Of a stretch of 64,000 nucleotides of DNA, positions 2,161-59,067 are shown in pieces. The position numbers were made by a program, and so were the translations under genes. Every line of letters begins with the position of its first letter. Position 1 is the first letter of the stretch. Source of the stretch: Cyclobacteriaceae bacterium (GTDB lineage: Bacteria > Bacteroidota > Bacteroidia > Cytophagales > Cyclobacteriaceae). The stretch lies in contig JAHBUD010000001.1 of NCBI GenBank assembly GCA_019638255.1, forward strand, positions 2,790,001-2,854,000, read 5' to 3'. The notes beneath the pieces were generated by a model. The model worked only from the letters and a program-made list of their open reading frames with translations, made no database searches and was not told the DNA's origin.

Positions 2161-2194
2161 TTATGGCATTACAGTGATTTTGACCTCCAAACGC

Positions 2195-4545: not shown

Positions 4546-4797
4546 AGCTTTTGGAATAAGTTGAATGAAGGTATGAATTTATTGATTACGTCAAACTGAT
4601 TTTGGTCAGTACTAAATATCGTTTTCCATTTGACTATTCCGTTGTATTCGCTAACTTTTACTCTCCCAACCAAGCCTTAAGAAAACCTGATTTAGCTTCT
4701 AATTTTCAAGTTCTGCAAAGTTTTTTGCTGTAGTTCAGGGAAACCCTTAATGCAAACAGGTTGCCCTGGTTTTATTATTAACCTTGACCCCACTACC

Positions 4798-5301: not shown

Positions 5302-5308
5302 GTCCGCA

Positions 5309-5671: not shown

Positions 5672-5683
5672 GGCTAACGATAC

Positions 5684-7255
5684 TTATCTTTTAATTTTTC
5701 TGAAAATAGCTTCCGCGCAGCGCTCCCCATCCATGGCGGCCGATACAATTCCACCGGCATAACCTGCTCCTTCACCACAGGGAAACAATCCGTTTAGTTG
5801 TGGATGTTCCAAAGTGTCCTTATCACGCGGTATCCTTACCGGTGATGATGTGCGGCTCTCCACCCCTACCACCTGCGCATCGTTGGTCAGGTAGCCTTTC
5901 ATTTTCTTTCCAAAGTTTTGAAATCCCTGGCGCAACGCTTCAGCAATAAATCCTGGTAATACTTCCTTCAGGTCAACGGATGCAAGGCCGGGTTGATAGG
6001 AAGTTTCCAAAAGATTTCCGGAAACTTTTCCTGTTGTAAAATCCGTTAACCGTTGAGCCGGAGCTGTTTGATTTTTTCCTGCTACTTCGCAGGCTTTCTG
6101 TTCGATGGCCGCTTGAAAATGCATACCTGCAAGTGAACCGTATTTAGCATAAGGTTGAAAGTCCCTTTCGTTTACTGAAACAACAATGCCTGAATTGGCA
6201 AAACGTGAATCCCTTCGAGAAGGGCTCATGCCATTCACCACCACCTCACCGGGTGCTGTTGCAGCCGGAACAATAAAACCACCAGGACACATGCAAAAAG
6301 AAAAAACACCTCGTTGAATACCATCCACTTCTGCCTGATGCACCAAAGCATACGATGAAGCCGGTAAGAAAAGCCCGCGGTCTACCGGACAGTGATATTG
6401 TATCCGATCGATTAACTGCTGTGAATGTTCAACCCGTAAGCCTAGCGCAAAGGGCTTCGCTTCAATCAGGATGTTATGTGCATTTAATAATTCAAAAATA
6501 TCGCGCGCAGAATGTCCGGTGGCCAATAGTACAGCCTCTCCTTTCAAAAGATTACCATCTTGCGTCTTTACCCCTTTGATGCTTCCATCGTTAATATGGA
6601 AATCAACCACCTTTGTGTTGAAATGAATTTCACCGCCCGCATTTATAATGCTTTGGCGTATCGCTTCAATTATTTTTGGGAGTTTGTTGGTGCCGATGTG
6701 TGGATGTGCATCATAAAGAATTTCATCTTTCGCACCGTGCGCCACAAGAATTTCAAGGATCCGGTATACATCGCCACGCTTCTTTGAACGCGTATACAAC
6801 TTGCCGTCAGAATATGTGCCTGCGCCTCCTTCCCCAAAGCAATAGTTTGAATCAGGGTTAACATGATGCTGCTTGTTGATCGCAGCAATATCCCTGCGCC
6901 TGGCCTGCACATCTTTGCCGCGTTCCAACACAATCGGTTTTAAACCCAATTCAATCAGCCGTAAGGCTGCAAACAAACCTGCCGGGCCAGACCCAACAAT
7001 CACCACCGGTCTGAAGCGGGAAACATCGTTGTAATTTTTTTGAAAATGGCGGAGTGGACTTTGCTCAGCTGTACTGCTAATTTCACACAACACGCGAACC
7101 ACTACCCGCTTTCCCCTTGCATCGATTGATCTTTTGATTGGCCTTATCCAGACATCACCCCCCATGGGTAAACCCAGCTTCTGATACAATGACGGTATAA
7201 AAAGGGATTCTGAAAAGGCCTCTTCTGGTGAGAGGATTACTTCATTTGTTTGCAT
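5684..7255 (-). CDS. NAD(P)/FAD-dependent oxidoreductase (COG2509-type)
   Basis: A 523-residue flavoprotein with an N-terminal region of about 80 residues, then an FAD-binding Rossmann motif VGSGPAGLFAALRL starting near residue 87, the ERG acidic strand end, a FGEGGAGTYSDGKL segment typical of this uncharacterised dehydrogenase family, and a C-terminal GLFPCGEGAGYAGGIVSAAMDG motif closing the FAD site. The length and motif order match the whole family. The substrate is unknown; the family is distantly related to HI0933-like flavoproteins and geranylgeranyl reductases. It sits in a minus-strand run after the MORN gene (45-base gap) and before the CoA-binding gene. Confidence 0.85.
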   Translation of the reverse strand: MQTNEVILSPEEAFSESLFIPSLYQKLGLPMGGDVWIRPIKRSIDARGKRVVVRVLCEISSTAEQSPLRHFQKNYNDVSRFRPVVIVGSGPAGLFAALRLIELGLKPIVLERGKDVQARRRDIAAINKQHHVNPDSNYCFGEGGAGTYSDGKLYTRSKKRGDVYRILEILVAHGAKDEILYDAHPHIGTNKLPKIIEAIRQSIINAGGEIHFNTKVVDFHINDGSIKGVKTQDGNLLKGEAVLLATGHSARDIFELLNAHNILIEAKPFALGLRVEHSQQLIDRIQYHCPVDRGLFLPASSYALVHQAEVDGIQRGVFSFCMCPGGFIVPAATAPGEVVVNGMSPSRRDSRFANSGIVVSVNERDFQPYAKYGSLAGMHFQAAIEQKACEVAGKNQTAPAQRLTDFTTGKVSGNLLETSYQPGLASVDLKEVLPGFIAEALRQGFQNFGKKMKGYLTNDAQVVGVESRTSSPVRIPRDKDTLEHPQLNGLFPCGEGAGYAGGIVSAAMDGERCAEAIFRKIKR

Positions 7256-7300
7256 AAGGAAGGGAGTTAACCTTCAAATCAGGTGTACAAATATACCAGA

Positions 7301-9085
7301 CTAACGATATGAAAATACGTTACCGATATTAAGACCAAATGTAAAACCTGTAATCAGGTGCGATTGATTTACCTCCTGAAAATAATTTGCACTGGCAGGA
7401 TCAACAGTCACATTCCTGTATCCCACATTCGCGGAGCCATATAAATCGATGGTAAAACCGCTTACATTGTTCCGCTGTATAATCCGGTAACCCAACAACA
7501 CACCATACTCAATGCGCTGATCGGGTGCTGTAAAGGTGATGATAGTCTCCGGATTGGAGTTGTACATCACATTAGTAAAGTGGCCAATGTTGCTGAACCG
7601 AAGTTGATGCCCCAAATACCACATGCCTGCTTTAGTCGGGTTATACAATTTTTGTTTGATGGCAATGCTGTAGCCGCGTGTAAATAATTTTCCAGGCACC
7701 ACTTGATCGTCAGCCTCAAAGAAGGGTTCACGAATGCCGATAAATTCAAAGGAGTGTCCTAAGCGTTCTTGCGAATAAAACTCTACTGCCATCGGAAAAC
7801 GACCGGCAAACATCAGCACCGGATTACCCTCCACAATAACGCCTTTATACTCATTGGCGCGTGCAGTAAAATAACCGAAGCTTTTGGATGAACTGCGGGT
7901 GGCAGATTCCTTGCGAGCAGTCAGTTCCTGAATATCCTTTGCGGTTGACGGCTGGTAATACGGCCTATAGTATCCCGACAAGGTGCCATCACGTTCATAG
8001 AGTTCCCACGTTCCCACCTTCTTATCGCCATCAATTTCGCCACGGGTTTGAAGCGCTCCATCGCGGTAGTAACCATAATAGGTTCCCTTACCCCGATCGA
8101 ATTCACAATCACCCTCCTTTTTACCATCCTCATAATAAAATACCCATGGGCCTTGCCGGAAACCCTCAACAACCTTTCCACTAATCTTTAGCTTACCGCT
8201 CGGGTAATACTCTTTATAGCCTCCTGTACCCTGATCATAGTTTGCTTCACTGAGCAACTTACCGGTTGGTGTAAATGAACTCCAATAGCCTTGCTTGTAA
8301 CCTTCCAGGTATTCACCTGAAGAGCTCATGGTTCCATCTTCAAAGAAATACTCCCACTTGCCGACCGGATGATCATTTTCATATTTTCCATGGGCTGCAA
8401 TATTTCCAGACGGGAAGTACGTGATCCATTCACCGGTGCGTTTGCCGTTTTCGTAATCACCCTCCATCCACAGTGTGCCGCTAACTTCATCGTAAAAACG
8501 CCAATGCCCTACTTGGCGCGTACCGCTTTTTGGGCCTTCGGCTGCAATCATTCCGGAATGAAAGTATTCCGTATACCTGCCAAAGTCATCGGTGTATTCG
8601 ATCTCACCCTTTTTCAAGCCGTCTTCAAAAAAGCTTGTCCATAATCCTGTTCTTCGATTAGTAACATAGGAACCAACTTCTTTTACCTGGCCATTCTCGT
8701 AGTAGATTTTCCACTCACCTTCGCGGTTCTTGCCGTTGATGGTGCCCTCCATACTTTTCTGCCCGCTCTCATAAAAATATTCCCAGAGACCGTAGTTGGC
8801 ATTCTGCCGCAAGGCACCTCGCATTTTCAGGTTGCCCGATTCGTAGAAGAACTCCCAAATGCCGGTGGTTTCGTTGTTGGTGAAGAATCCCTTGGATTCT
8901 ATGTTTCCATTCAAGTAGTATGAAACATAGCGACCATTCAAAAAATTTTTGATGGTATCCTTTACCTGGAAAACTTCTTTGATATAATTTTTTTCAGGAT
9001 CGTGATAGGAGTACCGGGTAAAAACCTGGGCACTGATCTTTACTGATAAAAAAAGAATAACAGAGATTGATACGAACCTTCTCAC
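7301..9085 (-). CDS. MORN/YwqK-repeat surface protein with C-terminal beta-barrel-like domain
   Basis: A 594-residue exported protein (signal peptide MRRFVSISVILFLSVKISAQ). Residues about 45-370 are at least a dozen repeats of the MORN/YwqK kind, each reading like G-x-W-x-x-Y/F-x-x-x-G-x-x-x-x-x-G, e.g. GLWEYFYESGQKSMEG and GKWEYFFEDGTMSSSG. The last about 190 residues alternate hydrophobic and aromatic residues (GYFTARANEYKGV ... HLITGFTFGLNIGNVF), like an outer-membrane barrel of the DUF3575 sort. YwqK repeats are often labelled antitoxin in databases, but nothing here suggests a toxin-antitoxin role. It lies 36 bases after the tryptophan dioxygenase gene. Confidence 0.75.
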   Translation of the reverse strand: MRRFVSISVILFLSVKISAQVFTRYSYHDPEKNYIKEVFQVKDTIKNFLNGRYVSYYLNGNIESKGFFTNNETTGIWEFFYESGNLKMRGALRQNANYGLWEYFYESGQKSMEGTINGKNREGEWKIYYENGQVKEVGSYVTNRRTGLWTSFFEDGLKKGEIEYTDDFGRYTEYFHSGMIAAEGPKSGTRQVGHWRFYDEVSGTLWMEGDYENGKRTGEWITYFPSGNIAAHGKYENDHPVGKWEYFFEDGTMSSSGEYLEGYKQGYWSSFTPTGKLLSEANYDQGTGGYKEYYPSGKLKISGKVVEGFRQGPWVFYYEDGKKEGDCEFDRGKGTYYGYYRDGALQTRGEIDGDKKVGTWELYERDGTLSGYYRPYYQPSTAKDIQELTARKESATRSSSKSFGYFTARANEYKGVIVEGNPVLMFAGRFPMAVEFYSQERLGHSFEFIGIREPFFEADDQVVPGKLFTRGYSIAIKQKLYNPTKAGMWYLGHQLRFSNIGHFTNVMYNSNPETIITFTAPDQRIEYGVLLGYRIIQRNNVSGFTIDLYGSANVGYRNVTVDPASANYFQEVNQSHLITGFTFGLNIGNVFSYR

Positions 9086-34148: not shown

Positions 34149-34156
34149 TAAATTTG
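34149..34156 (+). promoter_or_regulatory. -7 box for the LysM/transglycosylase-like operon
   Basis: TAAATTTG is a perfect TAnnTTTG match 25 bases before the TTG start at 34181. It overlaps a more upstream in-frame TTG (34154), which rules that start out if the box is used. A TTTG lies at 34121-34124, five bases farther away than the usual spacing. Confidence 0.45.
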
Positions 34157-34180
34157 TCACTACATTCTAACCACATTTTT

Positions 34181-35575
34181 TTGAAGGCACTATTTTTTAA
34201 GCTTGTTTATCACACACTAATTACATCCAGCCTCATCGTTGTGCTGATGGTCAGCCATAACACGCTCCACGCCCAGTTTAAACGTGACACGGTTTTTATC
34301 CTGGCACAACAGGCAACCGCTGGAAAAACTTTTAGAATGACCAATACCACTGGAAACAACTTCCTGCGTGACAGCTTTTCGATCGCTCAGACTAAACGAT
34401 GGGCTGCACGAAGGAATGTCAACAATACTAATGTTGCATCTGCTTTGGCGCTTGGAAATAATTACTTCCCTAAAATCGAAACACTTTTGGCTAATCACAA
34501 TTTGCCTCCCGAGTGGAAATGGATACCGGTGAGTCTTTCAGGTATGGTCTATAACTTTTATGGACCGGATAGCCGTGCAGGATTGTGGCAACTCCCCCAC
34601 CTGGTTGGGATACGTTATGGACTTATTCTCAAACCTGGCTATGATCAACGGATTGACCCTGAAAAAAATTCAACGGTGGCCATTCAATATCTTAATGATC
34701 TGACACTGAAGTTTGGTGATTTGAATATTGCCCTGATGGCTTTCTTTAATGGTGAAGGCGTAGTGAGCAAAATCGTACCCGAGTTGCAAACCTTAAGGTT
34801 CAGAAGCGAAGCAAGCCGGCAACAATACATTTATCATCAATTACCTTCCGCAACCCGTGACGAAATTTATTTGTGGAATTACCTGACTGGTGTTTTTGCA
34901 AATCATAAAGTTCCTGTAACTGAAACCTATCCGGATAAACTAACCCTGACGAAAAAAGACAGCACCGTTATACAACGCCCTGTCACACTCGAAGAATTGT
35001 CGGTACTGATGAAGGCTCCGAAAGAAGAAATCGGATCATCAAACCCGGCTATTGTTGGCCAACGTATTCCAGCAGGTGTTCCCCTTTATTTATCGACAGC
35101 GAAGAAAGACAGTCTTATAGCAAACCTAGCTACGTATGCAGTAAAGCAAGACTCTATTCAATCCATCGCTGCGAAACCAACCGTTAAAGCAGTTAAGCCC
35201 CCCGAGAGCAGTTTTAATACGATGCATACCGTAAAGCAAGGCGATAATCTTGGGAGGATTGCCATGCAGTATGGCGTTGGTGTGCAACAACTAAAGGAAT
35301 GGAACAACTTGAAAAGTGATCGTATCAATGTGGGGCAACAATTGATTGTTTATACCAAAGCCCCTGTGGGCAAGAAGGCTGACGAAAAAATCAGTACCCC
35401 TGCACAAACCGTGTTGCAACCCGGTACTTACACGGAATACATAGTAAAGCAAGGCGACTCACTGTGGTCCATCGCAAGGCAATTTCCGGGTATTACCGTT
35501 GAAGATATTATGCGCTGGAATAACATCGGAGAGCGAATCGATATAGGCCAGGTATTAAAAATCAAAAAGCCATGA
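34181..35575 (+). CDS. LysM protein with degenerate lytic-transglycosylase domain
   Basis: A 464-residue exported protein. From the TTG at 34181 it has a signal peptide-like start (MKALFFKLVYH then a hydrophobic run ending LHAQ). Residues about 95-215 form an SLT/MltD-type domain (PPEWKWIPVSLSG ... RAGLWQLPHLVGIRYGL ... ALMAFFNGEG). Against the usual VESA...GLWQF motif the alignment is gapless but the catalytic Glu is Leu119. Two LysM domains follow (about 355-400 MHTVKQGDNLGRIAMQYG and 418-462 YIVKQGDSLWSIARQFP), which bind peptidoglycan or chitin-like glycans. It is therefore probably a peptidoglycan-binding, non-cleaving protein. Its stop overlaps the next ATG (ATGA), showing an operon. 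Confidence 0.8.
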   Translation: MKALFFKLVYHTLITSSLIVVLMVSHNTLHAQFKRDTVFILAQQATAGKTFRMTNTTGNNFLRDSFSIAQTKRWAARRNVNNTNVASALALGNNYFPKIETLLANHNLPPEWKWIPVSLSGMVYNFYGPDSRAGLWQLPHLVGIRYGLILKPGYDQRIDPEKNSTVAIQYLNDLTLKFGDLNIALMAFFNGEGVVSKIVPELQTLRFRSEASRQQYIYHQLPSATRDEIYLWNYLTGVFANHKVPVTETYPDKLTLTKKDSTVIQRPVTLEELSVLMKAPKEEIGSSNPAIVGQRIPAGVPLYLSTAKKDSLIANLATYAVKQDSIQSIAAKPTVKAVKPPESSFNTMHTVKQGDNLGRIAMQYGVGVQQLKEWNNLKSDRINVGQQLIVYTKAPVGKKADEKISTPAQTVLQPGTYTEYIVKQGDSLWSIARQFPGITVEDIMRWNNIGERIDIGQVLKIKKP

Positions 35576-37074
35576 AGCTTAGTCGGATTGCTGGATTTGG
35601 TGCGATCATTTTTCTGGCAGGTCTGGTTATTCAACTGATTCATCCTGCTGACGGCATTATTGTTACCGAGAAATTCAGGTTATACTTTCCTGCTACTAGC
35701 CAGGTGTTCACAACACAAAATCGGGCTGAGCGCGAACGCCTCCGAGCCATTCTGGAAGAAGAATCCGATCGCCTGTCAAAACTTGCCAACGAAAAAGCGG
35801 ATTCTATTCGCTCCATTTTTGTTCGCGATTCAATTCGCAAAGCTCAGCTCAGCATTCATTACCCAAATAACGACAGAAGTATCCTAAATGGATTTTTTAA
35901 AACGCTGGACAACATCCGCGTAAGCAAGCAACCCATTCACATCGTTCACTATGGTGACAGCCAGATTGAAGGCGACCGCATTACCGCCTACATTCGCCAA
36001 AAGTTGCAGGAACAATTTGGAGGAAAGGGACCGGGATGGCTTCCGGTTAAACCACTGGCCTATCCGCGCAGCCTTACCATTCAACATTCCGATAACTGGA
36101 GATCGTTTCATTTCTACAACCGTGGCGATAGCAGTCTTAATCACCGGCTTTACGGACACATGGGTATCTTTTCACGGTTCACACCTTATCCGGATAGCAC
36201 TACAGAAGTGGACACCCAACACCATGCATGGATTAGCTACAAACCTTCGGCTCGCTCCCATCCAACCATCCGCAAGTTTAAAGATGTTCGAATTTTCTAT
36301 GGAAATATTACCAGTCCGGTAAGCATGGAGCTACTAAATGACGAAACGGTAGTTTTTACAGCAGTCTTACAGGAAACCGAAACGCCACAGGTTGTCCGTT
36401 ATACTGCTCCATTTTATATGGACGAAATCACGCTACGCTTTACAAGCAGCGATAGTCCTGATATCTATGGTGTTTCATTGGATGATACACAAGGCATTAT
36501 GGTTGATAATGTTGCCATGCGTGGCGATTCAGGAGCAAGTTTTACCAGTCTGGAAGATGCATCTTTTCGCACAACCTTCAATCAATTCAATGTACCCCTG
36601 TTCATTCTTCAATTTGGTGGAAATGCCGTACCCTACGCAAAAACCGATGAACGCATTGACGGATACGCCCGTAACTTCAAACGCAACCTTCAGTACCTGA
36701 AAAGATTGAAGCCTGATGCTGCTATTATTGTAATTGGTCCGTCTGATATGAGTGTGCTGGAAGGAACAAAATGGATTACCTATCGCCAACTTGAACAAGT
36801 ACGCGATGCATTAAAATCGGCCACGCATGAAGCGGGCGCTGCCTACTGGGATTTGTACGAAGCCATGGGCGGAAAGGGTTCTATGGTTGAGTGGGTTAAT
36901 GCCGATCCACCTCTTGCCATAAAGGACTACACGCATTTCACCGACAAAGGTGCTTTGAAAGCCGGACAATGGTTTACTGAAGCCTTGTTAAGGGATTATC
37001 AGTTTTACAAACAACAAAAAGAAAATGTTAGTGTGTTACCCGAAGAAGATAAGTCAGATGAGCATTCGAATTAA
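35572..37074 (+). CDS. SGNH/GDSL-family hydrolase, membrane-anchored
   Basis: A 500-residue protein with an N-terminal membrane anchor or signal (IAGFGAIIFLAGLVIQLI), a basic-acidic linker with coiled-coil character (about 45-85), then an SGNH domain: block I HYGDSQIEGDR with Ser130, block III LQFGGNAVPY, and block V KDYTHFTDKG with Asp452 and His455. A long insertion between blocks I and III looks like a beta-sandwich. Together with the downstream MBOAT gene it resembles the AlgJ/AlgX or PatB partners that move acetyl groups onto a glycan in the periplasm. Overlaps upstream by 4 bases and downstream by 17. Confidence 0.82.
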   Translation: MKLSRIAGFGAIIFLAGLVIQLIHPADGIIVTEKFRLYFPATSQVFTTQNRAERERLRAILEEESDRLSKLANEKADSIRSIFVRDSIRKAQLSIHYPNNDRSILNGFFKTLDNIRVSKQPIHIVHYGDSQIEGDRITAYIRQKLQEQFGGKGPGWLPVKPLAYPRSLTIQHSDNWRSFHFYNRGDSSLNHRLYGHMGIFSRFTPYPDSTTEVDTQHHAWISYKPSARSHPTIRKFKDVRIFYGNITSPVSMELLNDETVVFTAVLQETETPQVVRYTAPFYMDEITLRFTSSDSPDIYGVSLDDTQGIMVDNVAMRGDSGASFTSLEDASFRTTFNQFNVPLFILQFGGNAVPYAKTDERIDGYARNFKRNLQYLKRLKPDAAIIVIGPSDMSVLEGTKWITYRQLEQVRDALKSATHEAGAAYWDLYEAMGGKGSMVEWVNADPPLAIKDYTHFTDKGALKAGQWFTEALLRDYQFYKQQKENVSVLPEEDKSDEHSN

Positions 37075-38308
37075 CCTAATCTATTTACTCTTTACCGGAA
37101 TGCTGCTGGATGCCTACACGCTTCAAGCGCAGCGCTATATCCACGATTACCCGTATTATAACTTCATTCAATATGATAAGAATCAACTACAATATTCTGG
37201 AAACGCTGAGCCCATGCGTGGCTTTTATGAAAAACTTGACCGGTTGATCTTCAACGGTGAAGGACAATTGAATATCCTGCATGTTGGAGCATCGCACATC
37301 CAGGCCGGGGTATGGTCAGGAACAGTACGCGAAACCCTTCACTCACTTCAATCAGGGCTTGTTGCCGGAAGAGGTCTTGTGTTCCCCTATAGCGCTGCAA
37401 AAACCAACACACCTTACGATTATACGGTTGAACACAGTGGACATTGGGATGGCTGTCGCAATGTGGAGAAAAATAAAGATTGTGAACTGGGTGTAATGGG
37501 CATTTCCGTAACGACCAAGCATCAGGGTGCCTGGCTCAAAATCGGGCTAAGGAAAAACCCATACCTCAACTACGATTTTACACAAGCCATTGTGTACCAT
37601 ACTGCCGATGCACAATCGTACGGCTTTGAGTTTCCGAATGACCCGGGGGCTATCATTCAAACCTTTGCCGATCGGGGATATTCTAAAATTACTTTCACGC
37701 GTGCGTTGGATACACTTCACCTGAGGCTTAAACAAACTGACTCACTACAACACTATTTCACCTGCTTCGGGTTTAAACTAGAAAATGACAGGACGGGAAT
37801 TTATTATCATGCCGTTGGTATCAATGGTGCCGATGTGCCAGCTTACTTACGAAGCCCGAATTTTGCGCGTGACCTGAGGCTTGCACCGCCCGATCTAGTG
37901 ATTCTTTCTGTTGGAATAAACGATGCGCTCTATCCAAATTTTTCACCCGAGGCTTACAAAGCAAACTATCGTGAGCTGATCAGAAGAATAAAAACAGTAT
38001 CACCTAATGTTGCCATTGTATTTACCACCAACAGCGATAGTTACTTCAAAAAACGTTATGTCAATCCCAATGGAGAAAAAGTTAGAAAAGCCATGCATGA
38101 ATTATCCGCTGAATTAAATACGGGTGTTTGGGATCTGTACGGCATCATGGGCGGATATGGCAGTATCGATACCTGGATCAACGCGAAGTTGGCAAAAACA
38201 GATAAAATTCATTTTACCAATGAGGGCTATCGCATACTTGGCTATTTATTGGCCAGCGCCATCGTTCAGGATTATGAAAAGCATATGCTGGCCAATGTTA
38301 AACGCTGA
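37058..38308 (+). CDS. Second SGNH/GDSL-family hydrolase
   Basis: A 416-residue exported protein (signal peptide MSIRINLIYLLFTGMLLDAYTLQAQ). The SGNH blocks are HVGASHIQAG with Ser79 (Ala replaces the usual Asp of GDS), LSVGINDALYP for block III with its Asn, and DKIHFTNEGY with Asp382 and His385, so a catalytic triad is possible. It is related in layout to the preceding gene, including the insert between blocks I and III. The ATG at 37058 begins the signal peptide; the gene overlaps its predecessor by 17 bases and the MBOAT start by one base (TGATGG). Role: probable O-acetyltransferase or esterase of the same pathway. Confidence 0.82.
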   Translation: MSIRINLIYLLFTGMLLDAYTLQAQRYIHDYPYYNFIQYDKNQLQYSGNAEPMRGFYEKLDRLIFNGEGQLNILHVGASHIQAGVWSGTVRETLHSLQSGLVAGRGLVFPYSAAKTNTPYDYTVEHSGHWDGCRNVEKNKDCELGVMGISVTTKHQGAWLKIGLRKNPYLNYDFTQAIVYHTADAQSYGFEFPNDPGAIIQTFADRGYSKITFTRALDTLHLRLKQTDSLQHYFTCFGFKLENDRTGIYYHAVGINGADVPAYLRSPNFARDLRLAPPDLVILSVGINDALYPNFSPEAYKANYRELIRRIKTVSPNVAIVFTTNSDSYFKKRYVNPNGEKVRKAMHELSAELNTGVWDLYGIMGGYGSIDTWINAKLAKTDKIHFTNEGYRILGYLLASAIVQDYEKHMLANVKR

Positions 38309-40170
38309 TGGTTGAGTGGCTGGAGTCTATATTCTTTTTCTGGGAGGATCCTCCCGGCTCCGGCATGTCCGATGGGTTCTTCTTTACTAAAATATACTTC
38401 TGGTTTTTTCTTCTATTCGTTTTAGGCATCCAATCCCTTATTGAAGAAGGCAGCAAATGGCACACTACCATGTTGTTCAGCACAACGGCTGCGGTGCTAG
38501 GGCTCTTGTTCTTCACGTATAATGAATTGGGTCCGGTTTTCATCTGCTGGTCAGTTTTTGCGTTTTTTATTATCTACTATTCCATGCGCGATAACCGAAC
38601 TACATCGCGCAATGCTTTTCTGTTTGCCGCCAGTTTATTCTTTTACTACAAAACCAGTGGATTCTTCTTTTTGATCCTCGTGTTCTCCACTTTGATCAAT
38701 TATGCCAGCGGATTGGGCATAAGTCGCACAACGAAACCAGGCTATCGAAAATCGATTCTCGCACTCGGTATTATTATTAACCTGTTGGTGCTGTTCTACT
38801 TCAAGTACGCCTACTTCTTCACCGATTCGTACAATTTGTTTGTTGATTCATTCAACCAATTCTGGAATACCAATATTGGTCAGTACCTGCAGGTAAAAAA
38901 TGTACTTGCCGCATGGGCTAACCATCAGTTTGGTGGAACCTTTCAGGTAGATAAAATTTTGCTTCCGGTAGGCATATCGTTCTACACCTTTCAATCCATC
39001 AGCTATATCGTGGATGTTTACCGAAAAGAAATGAAGCCGGTGTATAATATTCTGAACTTCGGTTTTTATGTTTCCTTTTTTCCGCAACTGGTAGCCGGTC
39101 CGATTGTAAGGGCGAAAGATTTTATCCCACAACTCAACAACACCCATACCTTATCGCGTCATGACTTTGGTATCGGGCTATTTTGGATTTTAAATGGTCT
39201 ACTCAAAAAAGCATTCCTTGCCGACTTTCTGGCTAACGGGTTTATCGATGGTGTCTTTGAAGATCCTCTTCGTTTCACCGGCTTTGAAAACCTGATGGCC
39301 ATTTTCGGATATACTATGCAGGTCTATGCCGATTTTTCAGGATACACCGATATCGCGATCGGCATTGCTTTACTGATGGGATTCCGGCTGAACATCAATT
39401 TCAATTCGCCTTACAAGGCGCAACATGTTGGTGAATTCTGGCAGCGTTGGCACATATCCCTAAGTACATGGCTGAAAGATTTTTTGTACATACCCTTGGG
39501 GGGAAATAAGGCGGGCACATGGGCTACTTACCTTTGCATTAGCGGCATCATGCTGATTATGGTTGCGCTAAGCGGAAAATTCTGGATTCAGGTTGGGTTG
39601 GTGTTCATGCTATTATCATTGCTGATTGTTATCGTTGCTCAATTTTCAAAACTTTTTAAAAGTTGGATTAATACTAATGTAAACATCATGATAACCATGC
39701 TGCTAGGTGGTTTATGGCATGGCGCCAGTTGGAATTTTGTTATTTGGGGAGGCCTCAACGGATTGGGGGTTGTGTTCTACAAACTCTGGAGAAAAATCAG
39801 TCCATGGGAAAAGTCAGATCACCGAGTCGCCAGAATCTGGAAAATCACACTGACCCTTTCATTCATCACCTTCACCAGGATTTTCTTCCGTGCTGCCGAC
39901 ATGGATACCGCCATCCATATGATGAAACAAATCGGCACCCAATTCTATGCTTCGGTTATCCCCCAAGCCATCCACGCGTATGATATTTATTACGCGGTTT
40001 TACTGCTCGGTTTTATCATTCATTGGCTGAGCCAAAAGTTAAAGCATAGTTATCGGCAGTTTTTTGCAAATCTTCATTGGAGCGTCCAGGCCGTTATTGC
40101 CGTACTGGCAATTTACCTGGCCCACCAAAGCCTTCAGGCCTCTCAGCCGTTTATTTATTTTCAATTCTAA
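38308..40170 (+). CDS. MBOAT-family membrane O-acyltransferase (AlgI/PatA-like)
   Basis: A 620-residue polytopic inner-membrane protein with about 12 hydrophobic segments. The MBOAT/AlgI signatures are present: FYTFQSISYIVDVYRKE, FFPQLVAGPIVRA, QVYADFSGYTDIAIGIALLMGF, FWQRWHISLSTWLKDFLYIPLGG, and LLGGLWHGASWNFVIWGGLNG with the catalytic His471. Such proteins pass acyl groups, usually acetyl, across the membrane for O-acetylation of alginate, peptidoglycan or other glycans. With two SGNH proteins and a LysM protein before it, a cell-wall or exopolysaccharide O-acetylation machine is likely. Stop and HPPD start are 68 bases apart. Confidence 0.93.
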   Translation: MVEWLESIFFFWEDPPGSGMSDGFFFTKIYFWFFLLFVLGIQSLIEEGSKWHTTMLFSTTAAVLGLLFFTYNELGPVFICWSVFAFFIIYYSMRDNRTTSRNAFLFAASLFFYYKTSGFFFLILVFSTLINYASGLGISRTTKPGYRKSILALGIIINLLVLFYFKYAYFFTDSYNLFVDSFNQFWNTNIGQYLQVKNVLAAWANHQFGGTFQVDKILLPVGISFYTFQSISYIVDVYRKEMKPVYNILNFGFYVSFFPQLVAGPIVRAKDFIPQLNNTHTLSRHDFGIGLFWILNGLLKKAFLADFLANGFIDGVFEDPLRFTGFENLMAIFGYTMQVYADFSGYTDIAIGIALLMGFRLNINFNSPYKAQHVGEFWQRWHISLSTWLKDFLYIPLGGNKAGTWATYLCISGIMLIMVALSGKFWIQVGLVFMLLSLLIVIVAQFSKLFKSWINTNVNIMITMLLGGLWHGASWNFVIWGGLNGLGVVFYKLWRKISPWEKSDHRVARIWKITLTLSFITFTRIFFRAADMDTAIHMMKQIGTQFYASVIPQAIHAYDIYYAVLLLGFIIHWLSQKLKHSYRQFFANLHWSVQAVIAVLAIYLAHQSLQASQPFIYFQF

Positions 40171-50275: not shown

Positions 50276-50470
50276 TTAATCCTTTGATCTCCTGCCCATG
50301 AATCGTTTAATCCCTAAGGCAGCACCAGCCGCCAGTAACCATTCGATTCCGGATATCGGTACATCAGGGTCACAAGGAGGTCCTCCGGGGCATGGATCTC
50401 CAGGCTGCGCCCATGTTGATGCTGACAACAAAAGAACTAAGGATATAGTGATTAAAGCGCGGGTCTTCAT
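50276..50470 (-). CDS. 64-residue protein with exosortase-type (PID-CTERM-like) sorting signal
   Basis: A signal peptide (1-21), only about 16 mature residues (QPGDPCPGGPPCDPDV), then a C-terminal tripartite signal: PISG (38-41), a hydrophobic helix of about 12 residues (EWLLAAGAALGI) and a basic tail (KRFMGRRSKD). The LLAAGxxxGxK/R pattern closely resembles the PID-CTERM signals of Bacteroidota, though the usual D of PID is S here. Its ATG overlaps the stop of the giant T9SS gene by 4 bases, so it is translated coupled. An exosortase is encoded 10 kb upstream in the same strand, and that is its likely processing enzyme. Confidence 0.75.
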   Translation of the reverse strand: MKTRALITISLVLLLSASTWAQPGDPCPGGPPCDPDVPISGIEWLLAAGAALGIKRFMGRRSKD

Positions 50471-53400
50471 TTGCTGGTCTTAATAATTTTTACTTGTTGA
50501 ACTTGTTCACCTTTCTGTATGTGCAGGATGTATAGGCCGTCAGCATTCGAGGTTAAGTCAAGTTCACCGGATGCTATGCCTTCAGTAACAACTAATACAG
50601 TAGCAATTTGCTCTTTTCCAGTTACATCCAACACTTTTACCGCTACCGGTACTGATGATGCTATTTCAATATAGAGCTTACCAACCGTTGGGTTAGGATA
50701 CACTCGGATTAATTTATCCGGATTTTCCTCCAGGCTTGTAAATACAAACTGAATCTCATCCGTTGTTACACAGCCGCCTGCTGCGGTTACCCGTAGCGTA
50801 TACTCCCCCGACTCAACCGCCTGTAACTGTTGGCCATTTTCACCGGGAATTAATGTTCCGTTAAACATCCATTCATTACCCGTCTCAAAATTCGAAATAA
50901 GCGCATTTCCTTCATTACTGATGGAGGCCAAAGGATATTGATAAACAACAGCCTCAACGGGCACACGGATACCCTCACACCCTAAACTGTTTGATACGGC
51001 TGTATAAAAGATCGCTGTCGCACTCAACTCAGGCGTTTGAAACACGGATCCGGTTGCCAATGGTGTAACGTCATCAATAGCATTATACCACTTAGTATCA
51101 CCAGTTGTATTAGCCACCGTCAGTTCTACACTTCCGGTAAGGCAACGCTCGGCTCCCTGTGCATTTATAACTTCGTAAACCTCAGCTACATTAACGGTCA
51201 CTCCCTTTTGAACGGCACATCCCGGCAATGAGCCTTGCACCTTGAGATTAGACTCACCGGCCAACAGATCATCTGTAGAAACCACGAGCTGTATTGTTTC
51301 GCCATTTCCTAGAACTGTCTGCGAAACAATCGCTTCGTTATGGTAAACCATGTAAGCTACATTGGGTTGTGAATTACTGATTTCTACCAGCATATCATTT
51401 CCGCTACAGATTTCTTCATTGGAAACAACAAGGAAATCACTTCTCACCTCAACCCCATTGAATCGTAGGGCAAATCGGGCACTACCAAAACTCAATGGAT
51501 CGGTTGATACCTGAAACGTGTATTCATCTTGGGTACGTAAATCAATTTCCTGATTTAAAAATTTATCAACCAAGACTAAACCAAAATAAGACTCAAAAGA
51601 ATCTACCATCGAAAATTCAAGTTGATAATTTCCGGGTGTTACGCCTGACACATCCAGGGGAACAACTTTCTCGCAATTGAAATCCCCCAAGGCATTGATG
51701 GCTAAATTACCAACACCCTCAACACGGCTAGATAAATTAAAGGTAGCGTTCGGAAGCTTCCATGCGTCTGCATGGGCATCAAATCCATCAGTTGCGTCAT
51801 CCCTGAAATGGATGATAGCTTCATCGCGAAGTGTGCCATTCGACAAAGCAAACCTTAAGATATTTTGCTCTGATCTTTCCCTGAAAAAAGTGGTCTGAGT
51901 ACCGGCCGATTTTACTTGTTCATTGGTCTCCAGGCTGGGAGCGATCCCTGTAGCCTGAACCCAAAAACCTTGTCCCATGGCGATATATCGTGACCCACCA
52001 TTAAGTCCGCCTGAACCTGATGTATACACAGCATATTGTCCGGTGGCGTTGTTACGGGTATAAATAGTACCACCAATGTTAGCACGTGTCCACCCTGTAG
52101 CAGCATCCCAGTCAATAGTAGACGGATACGGATTACCTACAAGATTCCAGCCATCGTTTGCCGGCACACCACTGGAAGTAAATGTTACACCGTAATTCAA
52201 GTTATCACGATTTACCGGTCCGCGAACACTCCATAAAGCTGAACCAGCAGACAAGAAAGGCTCAATGTTACCGCGAACGAAAATGGCATAACCACTGCCG
52301 GGTGTAAGCGTCTCTGCATTGGTTAAAACCGGAAATGCAAGGTATCCATCATCGATACCTCCTGAAATATCAGACTCATCGTACCTGAACATAGAAGGAC
52401 TTGTTGTACATCCCGTACAAACACTGGATCCTGTAAACGCGCCGGTAACTGGTATTTCATTTTGTATGTCGGCCACCGTAGCATTTTGAATGGGGCTGGA
52501 TATGTATCTATAAATCCGACTATTAGGCCCCTCCAGCGACATAAAACGTTGCACGGTTACATTACCCTGAACCTGAGCTCCCGCATTTGGAAATGGTGCG
52601 ATCGCAGCATCCAGGGTTGGATCATCATTGGATGAAATCAACGTGAATATCTGATCATTACCCACACCGTCAGCATCGAAGGTGGCATCTTCCTCTAAGG
52701 TAAGTACTCCAAGGAGGTTAACTCCGGCAGTTTGATCCAGTCGAACATCGGGGTTCGCAGGACCTTCTGCAATGTTAAGATTATTGAATGTCGTTACAGA
52801 GGAACCTTGTATATTCTGAGTTGATCCACCGGAGAAGATTATTCTTCCATTGCTGTGATTAAATGTTCCATCATTAATCCAATGTCCACCAATCGTATGA
52901 TCAAAGGAACCTGCTGTAAACGATGTTCCTGATCCGATGTTTACATCACCGCCTATCGTCAAACCGATTACACCCGTGGTGGATGCCGTACCACTTAATG
53001 TCAAATCTCCAGTGATTGATGTGGTACCTGCCTGCAAGGTCTTAACCCCACTACCCGACAACCCCAGATTTTCATAATTCACATTCTTAACTGTCTGGGC
53101 TGCTCCTGTATAGTTCACAGTGTTCCCCGTGGCCGTGGCTGTCATATTAGTGATGCCACTCGTACCCCCAATGTTCAAAGTCGCTCCGGAGCCTTGCGTG
53201 ATACGGCCAGTACCACTTAAAGCTGTACCCACGGTTAGCGTATTCGTATTGGTCAGCACTACAGCCGCACCGGTTACTGTAACGCTCGGTATGGAAAACG
53301 TCCCCGTCAGGGTTTGTGAGTTCGTGTTAAAAGTATGTACACCTGTACCTGCTGTGAATGTACCATTGTTGGTAATACCACCCTGAAAGGTTACTGCCTC

Positions 53401-56400
53401 CGTTGTATTGGTCCAAGTAGCTCCGTTGCTGATCGTAACCAGACCCGTAAATGTTTTGGTTCCTGTAGCGGAAGTGATTGACAACGCACCGCTGGTTCCG
53501 CCACCCACTGTTGTTGTGCCGGTTACAACAGTGGTGAACGCCCCGATGGTAAAGGTTACTCCATCTCCAATTACCAAATTACCGCCTACTGTAGTATTCG
53601 CTGCCAGCGTCTTCGTACCACTGCCCGATAAGGTCAGGTTGTTATACCCCAGTGCCTGAACCGTTTGAGCAACTCCTGTGTACTCTACCGTACTGCCCGC
53701 CACAGAATTCAATGTACCGTTAGCAGAACTGAAAATTAATCCACCTACCTGAAGCAGACCGGCTCCCGTAAATTGTATCGTGCTGCTTGCGCCTATTCCC
53801 GTTATATTTTCAACAACTGTAACTGTTCCCGTTGAAATAGTTATCCTATGACCGGCTCCACTTACTGATGCGGTAAAATCAATGTCATCTGAAGTAAGCG
53901 TGGCGGCACCTACATCCAATATATTCAAACCTGATGTTACTGTCTGCGGAATGGTTATTGTGCCTAAAACCGTCAAGCTGCCTGAGCTGATGGTTAAGGT
54001 ATTGGTAACATTGGTGCCTGCATCAAAAAACAGACCCTTACAAGTCTCTGCTCCAGCTATTGTCACAGAAAATCCGTCACCGATGTAAACAAAGTCGTCA
54101 GGTCCTGGTGTACCGGTGGCAGCGGGACCTCCAAATCCTGTGTTAGACCATGTCGTATTCAAGTCCCATGTAGAACTGGCTATCGAATAGAAGGTGTTAC
54201 CACCAATAGCTATTGTGATCTCACCTGAACTAGTGCTTAGGAAGTATGTATCATTTGTTGTCGCTGCAGCCGAGCCAGAACTTCCCCAAGTACCAGTTGT
54301 AGATTGTAGCAAACCACCCAGGATAAGTGTATTTGCTGTATGGGTGGTGAATACACCTAAGTCTGCGACAACTCCTGTGGTAATTGAAAGTCCTCCAGTT
54401 ATAGCAATAGAAACTCCAAAAACCTTTGTGCCGGAACCAGACAACATCAAGTCATTGAATGTTGTGGAGCCTCCTGTAATATTCTGACCTACACCATTGA
54501 AATTTATTGCACCACTTACTGTGCCAATAAATGTTCCATCGTTGGTCCAGTCTCCAGCCACATTGTGCGTGAATGCACCAGAGGTAAACGTAGCGCCTGC
54601 ACCGATGTTAACATTGCCTCCTATTGTGAGGCCGATCACCCCTGTGGTGGAAACAGTTCCACTTAAAGTCAAATCTCCGGTAATGGCAGTCGTGCCCTCT
54701 TGTAATGTCTTTATCCCACTGCCCGACAACCCCAGATTTTCATAATTCACATTCTTAACTGTCTGGGCTGCTCCTGTATAGTTCACCGTGTTACCTGCGG
54801 CAGTAGCTGTCATATTGGTGATAACACTCGTGCCTCCAATGTTCAAGATTGCGCCAGTTCCCTGTGTGATGCGGCCACCACCGCTCAAGGCAACGTCTAC
54901 TGTAAGTGTATTGGTGTTGGTCAGCACTACTGCAGCACCCGCCACAGTAACGCTCGGGATTATAAAGTTTCCAGTCAGTACCTGCGAGTTTGTATTGAAT
55001 GTATGAACTGCAGTGCCTGCGGTGAACGTACCGTTGTTGGTGATACCGCCCTGGAAAGTTACTGCCTCATTCACTGCTTCATTCCAAACGCCTCCCGGGT
55101 TTATCGTGACCAAACCCCTAAATGTCTTTGTGCCCGCTGTACCCGTTATCGACAAGGTACCGCTGGTACCCGCACCAATCGTGGTCGTGCCGTCAACCAC
55201 GGTTGTAACTCCCCCGATTACGTACGTCACACCGTCACCGATTACCAGATTGCCCCCAACGGTTGTGGTTGCTGCCAAGGTCTTCGTACCGCTGCCCGAC
55301 AAGGTCAGGTTATTGTAATCCAACGCCTGCACGGTCTGGTTGCCTCCTGTATATGCTACCGTGCTCCCGGCAAAAGATGCTAATGTTCCGTTTGAAGAAC
55401 TGAAAATGGATCCGCCTACTTGAAGCAAACCCGCTCCAGTAAATTGTATCGTGCTGCTGGGGCCTATGCCGGTTATATTTCCAGCTACTGTAACTGTACC
55501 GGTCGAAATGGTTAGTTGATGGCCTGAACCTCCAATAGAGGCTGTAAAATCAACATTATCCGCGGTAAGCGTTCCTGCGCCAACACTTAAAATGTTTGAA
55601 CCCGAGGTAACTGTCTGGGGAATGGTTACTGTACCTGAAACTGTTAAACTACCCGAACTTATTGTTAGGGTGTTCGTAACATCCGTGCCGGCATCAAATA
55701 ACAAAGCGCTACAGGTTTCATCACCTGATATTGTTACTGAAAAACCATCGCCAATGAAAACAAAATCGTCAGGGCCGGGAGTACCAGCAGCCGCTGCACC
55801 TCCAAAGCCTGTGTTGGACCAGGTAGTGTTTACATTCCAGGCTGTGCTGGCAATGGAGTAGAAGGTATTGGCACCTGTGATAACTGTCAAAAATCCATTA
55901 CCACTGAAGAAAGTATCATTTTGGTTTTCGGCTGCGGAACTGGTACTACCCCACGTGCCCGATGGACGAATTGCTCCGCCCAATACCAGTGTATTGACTG
56001 TGTGGGTATTCGCGTTACTCAGACTGGCGACAGCTCCGTTGTTAACCGTAAGCGTACCCGCTATCGCTAACGTGGGGCTAACCCCTAAAGTCTTGGTTCC
56101 CGATCCCGATAAGATTAAATTATTAAAAGTGGTAGAGCCTCCAGTAATGCTCTGGGCTGCTCCAGTGAAAACTAATGTACTTCCTGTTCCAATAAATGTT
56201 CCATCGTTGGTCCAGTTTCCAACCACATTGTGCGTGAATGCACCCGAGGTAAACGTAGTACCCGCCCCGATGTTTACATCACCACCGATCGTCAAACCGA
56301 TCACACCGGTGGTAGAAACAGTTCCGCTTAAAATCAAATCTCCTGCAATTGAAGTCGTACCCGCTTGTAAGGTCTTTACCCCAGTACCCGATAAGCCTAA

Positions 56401-58899
56401 GTTTTCATAATTTACATTCTTGACCGTTTGGTCTGCCCCGGTATAGTTCACCGTGTTCCCTGCGGCCGTGGCTGTCATATTTGTGATCGCACTCGCGCCT
56501 CCGATATTTAAAATCGCTCCAGGGCCTTGCGTGATACGGCCACCACCACTTAAAGCATTGCTAACCGTAAGGGTATTCGTATTGGTCAACACTACCGCTC
56601 CACCCGCCACCGTAACGCTCGGAATGACAAAGTCGCCCGTCAATACCTGAGAGTTTGTGTTAAAGGTATGGGCCGCTGTTCCTGCTGTAAACGTACCATT
56701 GTTGGTAATGCCGCCCTGAAAGGTTATTGCTTCATTCACTGCTTCATTCCAAACGCCTCCCGGGTTTATTGTAACCAAACCCGTAAATGTCTTTGTGCCT
56801 GCTGTGCCGGTTATTGACAATGTACCGCTGGTACCTGTACCTATGGTTGTCGTGCCGGTAACAACTGTTGTAAACCCTCCAATTACGAACGTCACTCCAT
56901 CACCAATTACTAAATTACCGCCTATGGTAGTGTTCGCTGCCAGAGTCTTCGTGCCACTGCCTGACAAAGTCAGGTTATTGTAAGCAAGGGCCTGAACTGT
57001 CTGGTTTCCTCCAGTATACGCTACCGTACTACCTGCAACAGAACTCAATGTTCCATTCGTAGAACTAAAAATGGATCCGTCCAACTGAAGCAAACCCGCT
57101 CCGGTAAATTGTATCGTGCTGCTGGGGCCTATGCCCGTTATATTTCCAGCTACTGTAACTGTACCGGTCGAAATGGTCAGTTGATGGCCTGCACCACTCG
57201 CTGAGGCTGTGAAATCAATATCAGGAGCGATAAGCGTACCACCGCCAACGTTTAATATGTTCGAACCCGAGGTAACTGTTTGGGGAATGGTTACTGTTCC
57301 TGAAACCGTCAAACTGCCAGAGCTAATCGTTAACGTATTGGTTACACTAGTGCCTGCATCAAATAACAGGACTTCGCAAACTTCATTTCCTGTAACAGTT
57401 ACAGTTTGACCATCGCCAATGATTACGTAATCACCAACTCCCGGTGCACTTAAAGCAGCAGGGCCTCCAAAGCCGATTGTGGACCAGGTGCTGGGTGCGC
57501 TCCAATCTGCACTCGCAATAGAATAATAGGTAAACCCACCGGTAGATACGGTGATCAACCCATTGCCGCTGAAGAAGGTGTCGTTCTGGTTGGCTGCTGC
57601 CGGGGAAGATGAAGTACTCCCCCAAGTGCCTGCCCCCTGTAAGGCACCGCCCAGGATCAATGTATTGGACGAATAGGTATTGGTATTACTCAAATTGGCA
57701 ATCGTCCCGTTATCAATTGATAGTTCATTGTTAATCGTGGCGTTACCATTAAATGTTTTAGTACCGCTGCCACTTAGTTGAAGATCGTCAAACGAAGTGG
57801 TGCCACCAGTTATGTTCTGAGTGCCACCGTTCAAAACAATTTTACTGCCTATGCCTGTAAAACTTCCATTATTAACCCAGTCGCCACCCACATGGTGCGT
57901 GAATGCACCCGAGGTAAATGAAGTGCCCGCCCCAATGTTAACATCGCCACCAATTGTCAAACCGACTACCCCGGTGGCGGAAACAGTTCCACTTAAAATC
58001 AAATCTCCTGCAATTGAAGTCGTACCCGCTTGTAAGGTCTTTACCCCACTGCCCGATAAGCCTAAGTTCTCATAATTTACATTCTTGACCGTTTGGTCTG
58101 CTCCTGTATAGTTCACCGTGTTCCCCGCGGCTGTGGCTGTCATATTGGTGATGTTGGAGGTACCACCTATGTTCAAGGTCGCCCCGGACCCTTGCACCAA
58201 ACGACCACCACCATTTAGGGCGGTGCTTACCGTTAAGGAATTGGTATTAGTTAGCTCATTGGCTCCGCCTGTTACGGTTATAGTCGGTATTAAAAAATTA
58301 CCCGTTAAGGTCTGTGAATTTGTATTAAAATTGTGATTGCCAGTATTTGCTGTAAAGGTGCCATTATTGGTAATACCGCCTTGGAAAACGATTATTTCAT
58401 TTACAGTTTCATTCCAAACTGCTCCTGGATTTATTGTAACTAAACCCGCAAATGTCTTTGTCCCTGCAGTGCCCGTTATCAACAACGAACCGCTTGTACC
58501 TCCGCCTACTGTCGTAGTGCCATTTACCACTAACGTGATACCACCAACGATAAAGAGAGCACCGTCTCCAATAGCCAGGTTTGTGGTAATGGTCAAATTT
58601 GCATTAACTGAAATTGTCGAGCCGTTTCCGCCAGTAAGTGAATTACAGGTTCGAGGGTCATCCACCGTTAAGGTAAATCCATCGCCTACAATAATGTCGT
58701 CTGTAGGATCTGGTATAATACCACCCGGCCACGGAGCATTGGGTACGGTTGAACTCCAACTGCCGTTCCCGGTGGTAACAATGGTAGCGGCTTCCAGAGT
58801 GCCTGTTAGAAGTAAGAAGGCCAGAAATAACCATAATCGGTTACTCAAACTAAAAACAAAAACCGGGAGAATAAATTTTAGCTCAACTATTCTTTTCAT
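50467..58899 (-). CDS. Giant T9SS-secreted beta-strand repeat protein
   Basis: A 2810-residue surface or secreted protein. From MKRIVELK it has a signal peptide-like hydrophobic stretch (LWLFLAFLLLTGTLEA), then about 2000 residues of Gly/Thr/Asn-rich beta-strand repeats. A partial first copy is followed by three copies of a module of about 555 residues (period 1665-1671 bases), beginning YYSIAS-x-x-W and containing NVNYENLGLSG and GNTVNYTGA. A non-repeat region with a GDKFYIYRYISSP-like stretch, an Ig-like region and a T9SS type A domain (RVYPNPTVGKLYIEI ... QQVKIIKTSK) complete it. Probably an adhesin or coat protein; function inferred only from shape. The start at 58899 is a judgement; an upstream start at 58944 is possible. 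Confidence 0.85.
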   Translation of the reverse strand: MKRIVELKFILPVFVFSLSNRLWLFLAFLLLTGTLEAATIVTTGNGSWSSTVPNAPWPGGIIPDPTDDIIVGDGFTLTVDDPRTCNSLTGGNGSTISVNANLTITTNLAIGDGALFIVGGITLVVNGTTTVGGGTSGSLLITGTAGTKTFAGLVTINPGAVWNETVNEIIVFQGGITNNGTFTANTGNHNFNTNSQTLTGNFLIPTITVTGGANELTNTNSLTVSTALNGGGRLVQGSGATLNIGGTSNITNMTATAAGNTVNYTGADQTVKNVNYENLGLSGSGVKTLQAGTTSIAGDLILSGTVSATGVVGLTIGGDVNIGAGTSFTSGAFTHHVGGDWVNNGSFTGIGSKIVLNGGTQNITGGTTSFDDLQLSGSGTKTFNGNATINNELSIDNGTIANLSNTNTYSSNTLILGGALQGAGTWGSTSSSPAAANQNDTFFSGNGLITVSTGGFTYYSIASADWSAPSTWSTIGFGGPAALSAPGVGDYVIIGDGQTVTVTGNEVCEVLLFDAGTSVTNTLTISSGSLTVSGTVTIPQTVTSGSNILNVGGGTLIAPDIDFTASASGAGHQLTISTGTVTVAGNITGIGPSSTIQFTGAGLLQLDGSIFSSTNGTLSSVAGSTVAYTGGNQTVQALAYNNLTLSGSGTKTLAANTTIGGNLVIGDGVTFVIGGFTTVVTGTTTIGTGTSGTLSITGTAGTKTFTGLVTINPGGVWNEAVNEAITFQGGITNNGTFTAGTAAHTFNTNSQVLTGDFVIPSVTVAGGAVVLTNTNTLTVSNALSGGGRITQGPGAILNIGGASAITNMTATAAGNTVNYTGADQTVKNVNYENLGLSGTGVKTLQAGTTSIAGDLILSGTVSTTGVIGLTIGGDVNIGAGTTFTSGAFTHNVVGNWTNDGTFIGTGSTLVFTGAAQSITGGSTTFNNLILSGSGTKTLGVSPTLAIAGTLTVNNGAVASLSNANTHTVNTLVLGGAIRPSGTWGSTSSAAENQNDTFFSGNGFLTVITGANTFYSIASTAWNVNTTWSNTGFGGAAAAGTPGPDDFVFIGDGFSVTISGDETCSALLFDAGTDVTNTLTISSGSLTVSGTVTIPQTVTSGSNILSVGAGTLTADNVDFTASIGGSGHQLTISTGTVTVAGNITGIGPSSTIQFTGAGLLQVGGSIFSSSNGTLASFAGSTVAYTGGNQTVQALDYNNLTLSGSGTKTLAATTTVGGNLVIGDGVTYVIGGVTTVVDGTTTIGAGTSGTLSITGTAGTKTFRGLVTINPGGVWNEAVNEAVTFQGGITNNGTFTAGTAVHTFNTNSQVLTGNFIIPSVTVAGAAVVLTNTNTLTVDVALSGGGRITQGTGAILNIGGTSVITNMTATAAGNTVNYTGAAQTVKNVNYENLGLSGSGIKTLQEGTTAITGDLTLSGTVSTTGVIGLTIGGNVNIGAGATFTSGAFTHNVAGDWTNDGTFIGTVSGAINFNGVGQNITGGSTTFNDLMLSGSGTKVFGVSIAITGGLSITTGVVADLGVFTTHTANTLILGGLLQSTTGTWGSSGSAAATTNDTYFLSTSSGEITIAIGGNTFYSIASSTWDLNTTWSNTGFGGPAATGTPGPDDFVYIGDGFSVTIAGAETCKGLFFDAGTNVTNTLTISSGSLTVLGTITIPQTVTSGLNILDVGAATLTSDDIDFTASVSGAGHRITISTGTVTVVENITGIGASSTIQFTGAGLLQVGGLIFSSANGTLNSVAGSTVEYTGVAQTVQALGYNNLTLSGSGTKTLAANTTVGGNLVIGDGVTFTIGAFTTVVTGTTTVGGGTSGALSITSATGTKTFTGLVTISNGATWTNTTEAVTFQGGITNNGTFTAGTGVHTFNTNSQTLTGTFSIPSVTVTGAAVVLTNTNTLTVGTALSGTGRITQGSGATLNIGGTSGITNMTATATGNTVNYTGAAQTVKNVNYENLGLSGSGVKTLQAGTTSITGDLTLSGTASTTGVIGLTIGGDVNIGSGTSFTAGSFDHTIGGHWINDGTFNHSNGRIIFSGGSTQNIQGSSVTTFNNLNIAEGPANPDVRLDQTAGVNLLGVLTLEEDATFDADGVGNDQIFTLISSNDDPTLDAAIAPFPNAGAQVQGNVTVQRFMSLEGPNSRIYRYISSPIQNATVADIQNEIPVTGAFTGSSVCTGCTTSPSMFRYDESDISGGIDDGYLAFPVLTNAETLTPGSGYAIFVRGNIEPFLSAGSALWSVRGPVNRDNLNYGVTFTSSGVPANDGWNLVGNPYPSTIDWDAATGWTRANIGGTIYTRNNATGQYAVYTSGSGGLNGGSRYIAMGQGFWVQATGIAPSLETNEQVKSAGTQTTFFRERSEQNILRFALSNGTLRDEAIIHFRDDATDGFDAHADAWKLPNATFNLSSRVEGVGNLAINALGDFNCEKVVPLDVSGVTPGNYQLEFSMVDSFESYFGLVLVDKFLNQEIDLRTQDEYTFQVSTDPLSFGSARFALRFNGVEVRSDFLVVSNEEICSGNDMLVEISNSQPNVAYMVYHNEAIVSQTVLGNGETIQLVVSTDDLLAGESNLKVQGSLPGCAVQKGVTVNVAEVYEVINAQGAERCLTGSVELTVANTTGDTKWYNAIDDVTPLATGSVFQTPELSATAIFYTAVSNSLGCEGIRVPVEAVVYQYPLASISNEGNALISNFETGNEWMFNGTLIPGENGQQLQAVESGEYTLRVTAAGGCVTTDEIQFVFTSLEENPDKLIRVYPNPTVGKLYIEIASSVPVAVKVLDVTGKEQIATVLVVTEGIASGELDLTSNADGLYILHIQKGEQVQQVKIIKTSK
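52800..57531. repeat. Tandem about 1665-bp repeats inside the giant gene
   Basis: Landmark spacing: the NVNYENLG codons lie at about 58069, 56404, 54739 and 53071 (steps 1665, 1665, 1668) and YYSIAS codons at about 57515, 55850 and 54179 (steps 1665, 1671). Stretches of identity are long: 53054-53118 equals 54722-54786 for 65 bases. Such near-identical in-frame repeats can recombine and may collapse in assemblies. Confidence 0.85.
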
Positions 58900-59067
58900 A
58901 GGACAGGTAGACTGGTGTAAAAAGGCGAGGAATGCACTCCACAATTCGATACAGCGAGACGATTCCTATTCCCATTGATTTTACGTAATTAGAGAAAACT
59001 TCAATCCGGAAAGTCAGTAAAACAAAATCGCTGTTTAAGACCCCTAACATCAGTTTCCACATTTCAA

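Follow-up and report, generated by a model that had tools for sequence, protein, structure and literature searches.

A probable O-acetylpeptidoglycan operon with a transglycosylase-like protein lacking its catalytic glutamate in a Cyclobacteriaceae genome

The window analyzed here is a 64,000-nucleotide stretch of the genome of a Cyclobacteriaceae bacterium (GenBank assembly GCA_019638255.1, contig JAHBUD010000001.1). Based on its list of open reading frames, an operon of four genes, here called A, B, C, and D, occupies positions 34154-40170 of the plus strand in the order LysM/SLT, SGNH, SGNH, MBOAT:

A, 34154..35575, plus strand: predicted secreted MltD-like protein with an SLT fold and two C-terminal LysM domains (Pfam SLT 9e-10, LysM 1e-32)
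B, 35572..37074, plus strand: predicted Ape1-type SGNH protein with a GDSQ block I and a hydrophobic N-terminus (profile match to 4k3u, 2.4e-36)
C, 37058..38308, plus strand: predicted Ape1-type SGNH protein with a GASH block I (profile matches to 4k3u, 9.8e-39, and 8gkd, 1.5e-31)
D, 38308..40170, plus strand: predicted PatA/DltB-like MBOAT protein (match to DltB, 6bug, 6e-24)

The original prediction described four genes overlapping by 4, 17, and 1 bases, and we found all of these reading frames and overlaps: A ends at 35575 and B starts at 35572; B ends at 37074 and the ATG of C lies at 37058; and the TGA of C (38306-38308) shares one base with the ATG of D (38308-38310). Gene A has two candidate start codons, TTG at 34154 and TTG at 34181. 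Searches with Pfam and NCBIfam identified two LysM domains (1e-32) and an SLT domain (9e-10) in A, Lipase_GDSL_2 in both B (3.5e-9) and C (7.9e-18), and MBOAT in D (2.1e-22). The direct neighbors of the operon are trpS, a 118-aa gene, a gene for an HPPD-like dioxygenase, and a gene for phosphoglucomutase. Consensus promoter-like sites were rarer than in shuffled sequences and terminator-like sites were barely above shuffles; we claim neither a promoter nor a terminator. Elsewhere in the window, the minus strand carries an ORF of 2825 aa (50467-58944).

D, which resembles DltB, is the sole MBOAT gene found in the 4.2-Mb genome. The MBOAT histidine corresponds to His471, located within the motif LWHGAS, and is invariant in nine orthologs. 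The C-terminus reads FIYFQF and includes Tyr617; all nine orthologs have either FIYFQF or FIYFAF, with one residue varying. Both hallmarks of PatA, an invariant MBOAT His and a C-terminal FXYXXF with its tyrosine, are therefore present in D. In PatA, the FXYXXF tail is auto-acetylated on its tyrosine, a reaction that requires both the MBOAT His and the tail Tyr, and the acetylated tail peptide donates its acetyl group to PatB (PMC12148441).

The SGNH protein encoded by B contains GDSQ in block I (Ser130) along with Asn351, Asp452, and His455, and that encoded by C contains GASH (Ser79, counted from the 37058 start) along with Asn288, Asp382, and His385. In alignments, neither the B family nor the C family shows any variation in the catalytic Ser, Asn, Asp, and His. 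The original prediction had named one SGNH protein with GDSQ and another with GASH, and B and C do carry these motifs. Within the alignment, GASH is confined to the window; at this site, congeners carry GGSH and more remote homologs GGSH or GDSH. We ruled out GASH as the mark of a dead SGNH protein because the altered residue lies outside the Ser-His-Asp triad, which is intact, and because homologs vary at the same position (GGSH or GDSH).

We compared profiles of 22 B proteins and 13 C proteins against solved structures. Ape1 of Neisseria meningitidis (4k3u) was matched by the C profile at 9.8e-39 and by the B profile at 2.4e-36, and both profiles matched Ape1 of Campylobacter jejuni (8gkd/8gld) over almost its full length, with the insert that lies between block I and block II also covered. 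C is colinear with Ape1, with 8gkd aligned over profile positions 63-401. For both profiles, the Ape1 structures ranked far above any other SGNH structure, and PatB chains were absent from the matches of the B profile to solved structures. Single-sequence searches of solved structures also placed B and C closest to Ape1. The alignments used for folding were shallow, comprising the window and related loci, and the resulting AlphaFold model of B (pLDDT 37.7) was unusable and was left out of the Foldseek search. The model of C was poor (pLDDT 56); Foldseek analysis of this low-confidence model returned Ape1 first (~1e-11 to 1e-12), whereas PatB (7trr) scored 3e-2 and no other fold did better than 1e-3, a result that we take only as agreeing with the profiles. 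Judged by sequence, B and C fall within the SGNH branch typified by the peptidoglycan O-acetylesterase Ape1. B departs from PatB in conserving RGxSG and in having ~190 residues between Ser130 and block II. The N-termini, as read from the translations, are hydrophobic and membrane-anchor-like in B, ahead of the SGNH domain, where PatB has a membrane segment, and signal-peptide-like in C.

A has the architecture of MltD, with an SLT domain followed by two LysM domains; however, the window protein reads IPVSLSGM at the position where MltD has ..ESG., and the catalytic Glu is replaced in all eight aligned A proteins (Leu in six, Gln in one, and Ile in one). This Glu is kept in all 28 MltD-like/SLT homologs, of which 24 come from relatives and 4 from the window's own genome. 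Because the catalytic Glu of the ES motif is missing, we ruled out A as an active MltD-type lytic transglycosylase, and the alignment thus bears out the "pseudo" in the LysM "pseudo-transglycosylase" of the original prediction. Among 60 related genomes, A-type copies are limited to the seven that have an A-B-C-D operon; the other congeners, which are without the operon, have a normal MltD alone and no A-type copy. A dedicated dead transglycosylase beside B-C-D looks like a new part of the system, and it is this addition that appears restricted in the present sample.

The distribution of the genes was surveyed in two sets of genomes. Among the 60 related genomes, D-type MBOAT proteins (E at or below 1e-70 to D) and B/C-type SGNH proteins occur in exactly the same 17, in eight of which D is unlinked; the naive hypergeometric probability of this co-occurrence is 2.6e-15, uncorrected for relatedness. 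Across 247 Bacteroidota genomes, B/C proteins were detected in all 36 genomes with a D-type MBOAT (E at or below 1e-65). Every D-type MBOAT observed was accompanied by B. C was missing from 11 of the 36 genomes, all members of the family that we label f34, and from one further genome, G050, all of which have B and D; f34 genomes often have a short SGNH gene upstream of B, which calls for caution in treating C as optional. Several families have contiguous B-C-D loci, and others have B-D with C adjoining D.

The full A-B-C-D order, which the original prediction proposed to look for across Cytophagales, is present in 7 of the 60 related genomes, the window's included. Apart from the window's genome, it occurs in three congeners and in members of three further genera of the family, with differing neighborhoods; L075, from a genome in a different family of the class, shows it too. 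Because the same order recurs in other genera within different neighborhoods, the arrangement is not due to chance. In nine operon-less congeners, only a small gene lies between trpS and the gene for the HPPD-like dioxygenase, exactly at the carriers' operon site; the four genes thus come and go as one block. A small tree of trpS and the dioxygenase did not group the carriers into one well-supported clade. In one congener, ~5.8 kb lie between D and the dioxygenase gene (L164, G010:C2:76000-86000, ~1732-7659); a 96-bp direct repeat (91% identical) of the D 3' end lies on either side of this segment, which contains an IS110-like transposase ORF along with further small ORFs.

In several lineages, Pfam identified C-type SGNH proteins with LysM domains inserted or appended:

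L051, 6707-8164: LysM-bearing C-type SGNH gene
L082, 8455-9876: LysM-bearing C-type SGNH gene
L050, 6871-8730: LysM-bearing C-type SGNH gene
L078, 8742-10925: LysM-bearing C-type SGNH gene

LysM domains bind GlcNAc-containing glycans, so these separate links to LysM, through gene A and through fusions in C, point to peptidoglycan as the target.

Other features vary among the relatives. In the f34 family, a gene of ~570 aa resembling fatty acyl-AMP/CoA ligases lies between B and the D-type MBOAT, as at the following positions and at similar f34 loci:

L139, 4751-6511: ligase-like gene
L102, 9066-10787: ligase-like gene

Given this position of the ligase-like gene, the acyl group may differ in some relatives. 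In two genera, a gene for a rhomboid/rhombosortase-like membrane protease directly follows D (L039 10884-11510 and L040 9773-10429). At L140, L148, L149, and L150, a second, shorter B-type SGNH gene lies beside conserved genes of ~425, 1030, 472, and 160 aa without an MBOAT gene, which suggests that SGNH proteins of this type serve another purpose as well.

O-acetylation of peptidoglycan governs autolysins as well as resistance to lysozyme; our literature search found no paper on this modification in Cytophagales. We consider it probable that B-C-D, together with A, is an O-acetylpeptidoglycan (OAP) operon for O-acetylation and de-O-acetylation of the cell wall, in which the dead transglycosylase A would serve as a wall-targeting scaffold. 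The assignment of B-C-D to OAP clusters follows from the predicted Ape1-type identity of B and C and from the MBOAT His and FXYXXF tail of D. The original prediction had left the target as either peptidoglycan or a surface glycan; it is the peptidoglycan part that gains good support, from the Ape1-type SGNH proteins, the FXYXXF tail, the LysM partners and fusions, and the co-occurrence of the genes. Several points count against an OAP operon: B is Ape1-like rather than PatB-like, with a large insert and the block II Gly kept; C has an insert, although the Ape1c protein of known clusters is described as having none; confidence in the structure models is low; an acyl/AMP ligase-like gene separates B and D in f34 genomes; A is missing from most B-C-D clusters outside Cyclobacteriaceae; and A is the fastest-evolving of the four genes.

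By analogy with characterized systems, the best-supported reading is that an acetyl group would pass from acetyl-CoA to Tyr617 of D, then to Ser130 of B, and then to MurNAc, with C removing it. D would take the acetyl group from cytoplasmic acetyl-CoA and load it onto the tyrosine of its own periplasmic FIYFQF tail, from which B, probably membrane-anchored, would receive it on its catalytic serine before transferring it to peptidoglycan at the MurNAc C-6 hydroxyl. Secreted C would act as the Ape1 esterase. A, without its catalytic Glu, may bind glycan strands uncut through its retained fold and two LysM domains, and it may keep the SGNH enzymes at the wall or stimulate them there, in the way that Neisseria LtgA assists Ape1.

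The division of labor between the SGNH proteins is suggested by their distribution: throughout the survey, D is accompanied by B, whereas C can be missing, which suggests that B is the acetyltransferase partner of the MBOAT and C is the O-acetyl esterase. The roles might instead be reversed or shared, with C receiving acetyl from D and B acting as the esterase, or with both acting as transferases at different sites. Neither protein is PatB-like by these comparisons, both profiles match Ape1, and C directly precedes D in the window, all of which would fit such an exchange; however, the presence of B with every D-type MBOAT, the absence of C from 11 of 36 phylum genomes and from G050, and the apparent N-terminal membrane segment of B, like that of PatB, make it rather unlikely. 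The survey further points to an Ape1-type protein, rather than PatB, as the partner of the MBOAT in Bacteroidota. Acylation of an exopolysaccharide or surface glycan, as by AlgI/AlgJ/AlgX or WssH/WssI, with the LysM protein as only a general wall anchor, appears improbable. The same MBOAT-tyrosine-SGNH chemistry operates in alginate and cellulose systems (PMC12148441), and relatives carry other MBOAT proteins with a similar tail region, but we set exopolysaccharide acetylation aside as a first choice because both SGNH proteins are of the Ape1 type, LysM is repeatedly joined to the system, and no genes for polysaccharide synthesis or export occur among the direct neighbors or among ten flanking genes at five other loci.

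Whether A belongs to the system is a separate matter. We tentatively propose that A is a pseudoenzyme subunit of peptidoglycan O-acetylation, recruited in Cyclobacteriaceae and at least one other lineage, that recognizes the strand which a transglycosylase would cleave and directs acetylation or de-acetylation to it; on present evidence, this proposal is about as likely to fail as to hold, if not slightly more so. A could also be a passenger, a decaying MltD paralog that has no role in acetylation and shares the operon by chance. Its rapid evolution and its absence from most B-C-D clusters outside Cyclobacteriaceae would agree with a passenger; however, A is intact in eight genomes and constrained (pN/pS 0.23-0.42, with synonymous sites near saturation), it overlaps the start codon of B, it is gained or lost together with B-C-D, and the LysM fusions in C offer a parallel elsewhere, so we regard a passenger as unlikely. 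If A is instead a subunit, a dead transglycosylase would help to place the very modification by which transglycosylases are blocked, and the fusion of LysM into the esterase of other lineages would represent a parallel solution. An operon-encoded dead lytic transglycosylase would then give a genetic handle on the placement of acetyl groups on particular strands.

Within the phylum, the OAP clusters of Bacteroides thetaiotaomicron, Bacteroides fragilis, and Porphyromonas gingivalis have the order ape1b-ape1c-pat, and 27% and 69% of peptidoglycan is O-acetylated in the two Bacteroides species (Weadge et al. 2005, PMC1199599). B-C-D resembles these clusters in its SGNH-SGNH-MBOAT order, with the MBOAT gene preceded by a pair of Ape1-type SGNH genes. 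The original prediction had called an MBOAT with two SGNH partners an unusual set; given the known clusters, two such partners are expected and are instead a hallmark of OAP clusters in Bacteroides and Porphyromonas. The operon described here differs in including A, as no lytic-transglycosylase-like gene was reported in those clusters, and in the insert kept by C, as Ape1c was described as being without it (PMC1199599). Nor is the machinery as such specific to Bacteroidota, a possibility raised in the original prediction, since O-acetylation systems are also found in Neisseria, Campylobacter, and others. The PatA/PatB/Ape1 system of Neisseria gonorrhoeae and Campylobacter jejuni shares with the operon an MBOAT with the conserved His and FXYXXF tail and two SGNH proteins, one of which is Ape1 (PMC12148441); however, PatB has no large insert and has Ser or Asn in place of the block II Gly, no protein here is PatB-like, and the gene order differs. 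DltB/DltD/DltX, which function in teichoic acid D-alanylation, likewise combine an MBOAT, an SGNH protein, and an FXYXXF tyrosine shuttle, whereas here the tail belongs to the MBOAT itself and the operon has no DltA/DltC-like genes. Among proteins studied experimentally, A comes closest to LtgA of N. meningitidis, in which a lytic transglycosylase fold cooperates with an Ape1-type esterase: LtgA enhances Ape1 activity, and defective LtgA results in hyper-acetylated peptidoglycan (PMC7083599). LtgA is a lipoprotein of the outer membrane and has enzymatic activity, whereas A is operon-encoded and of the MltD type without the catalytic Glu; we hypothesize that A has an LtgA-like role in which only the binding and partner functions are left.
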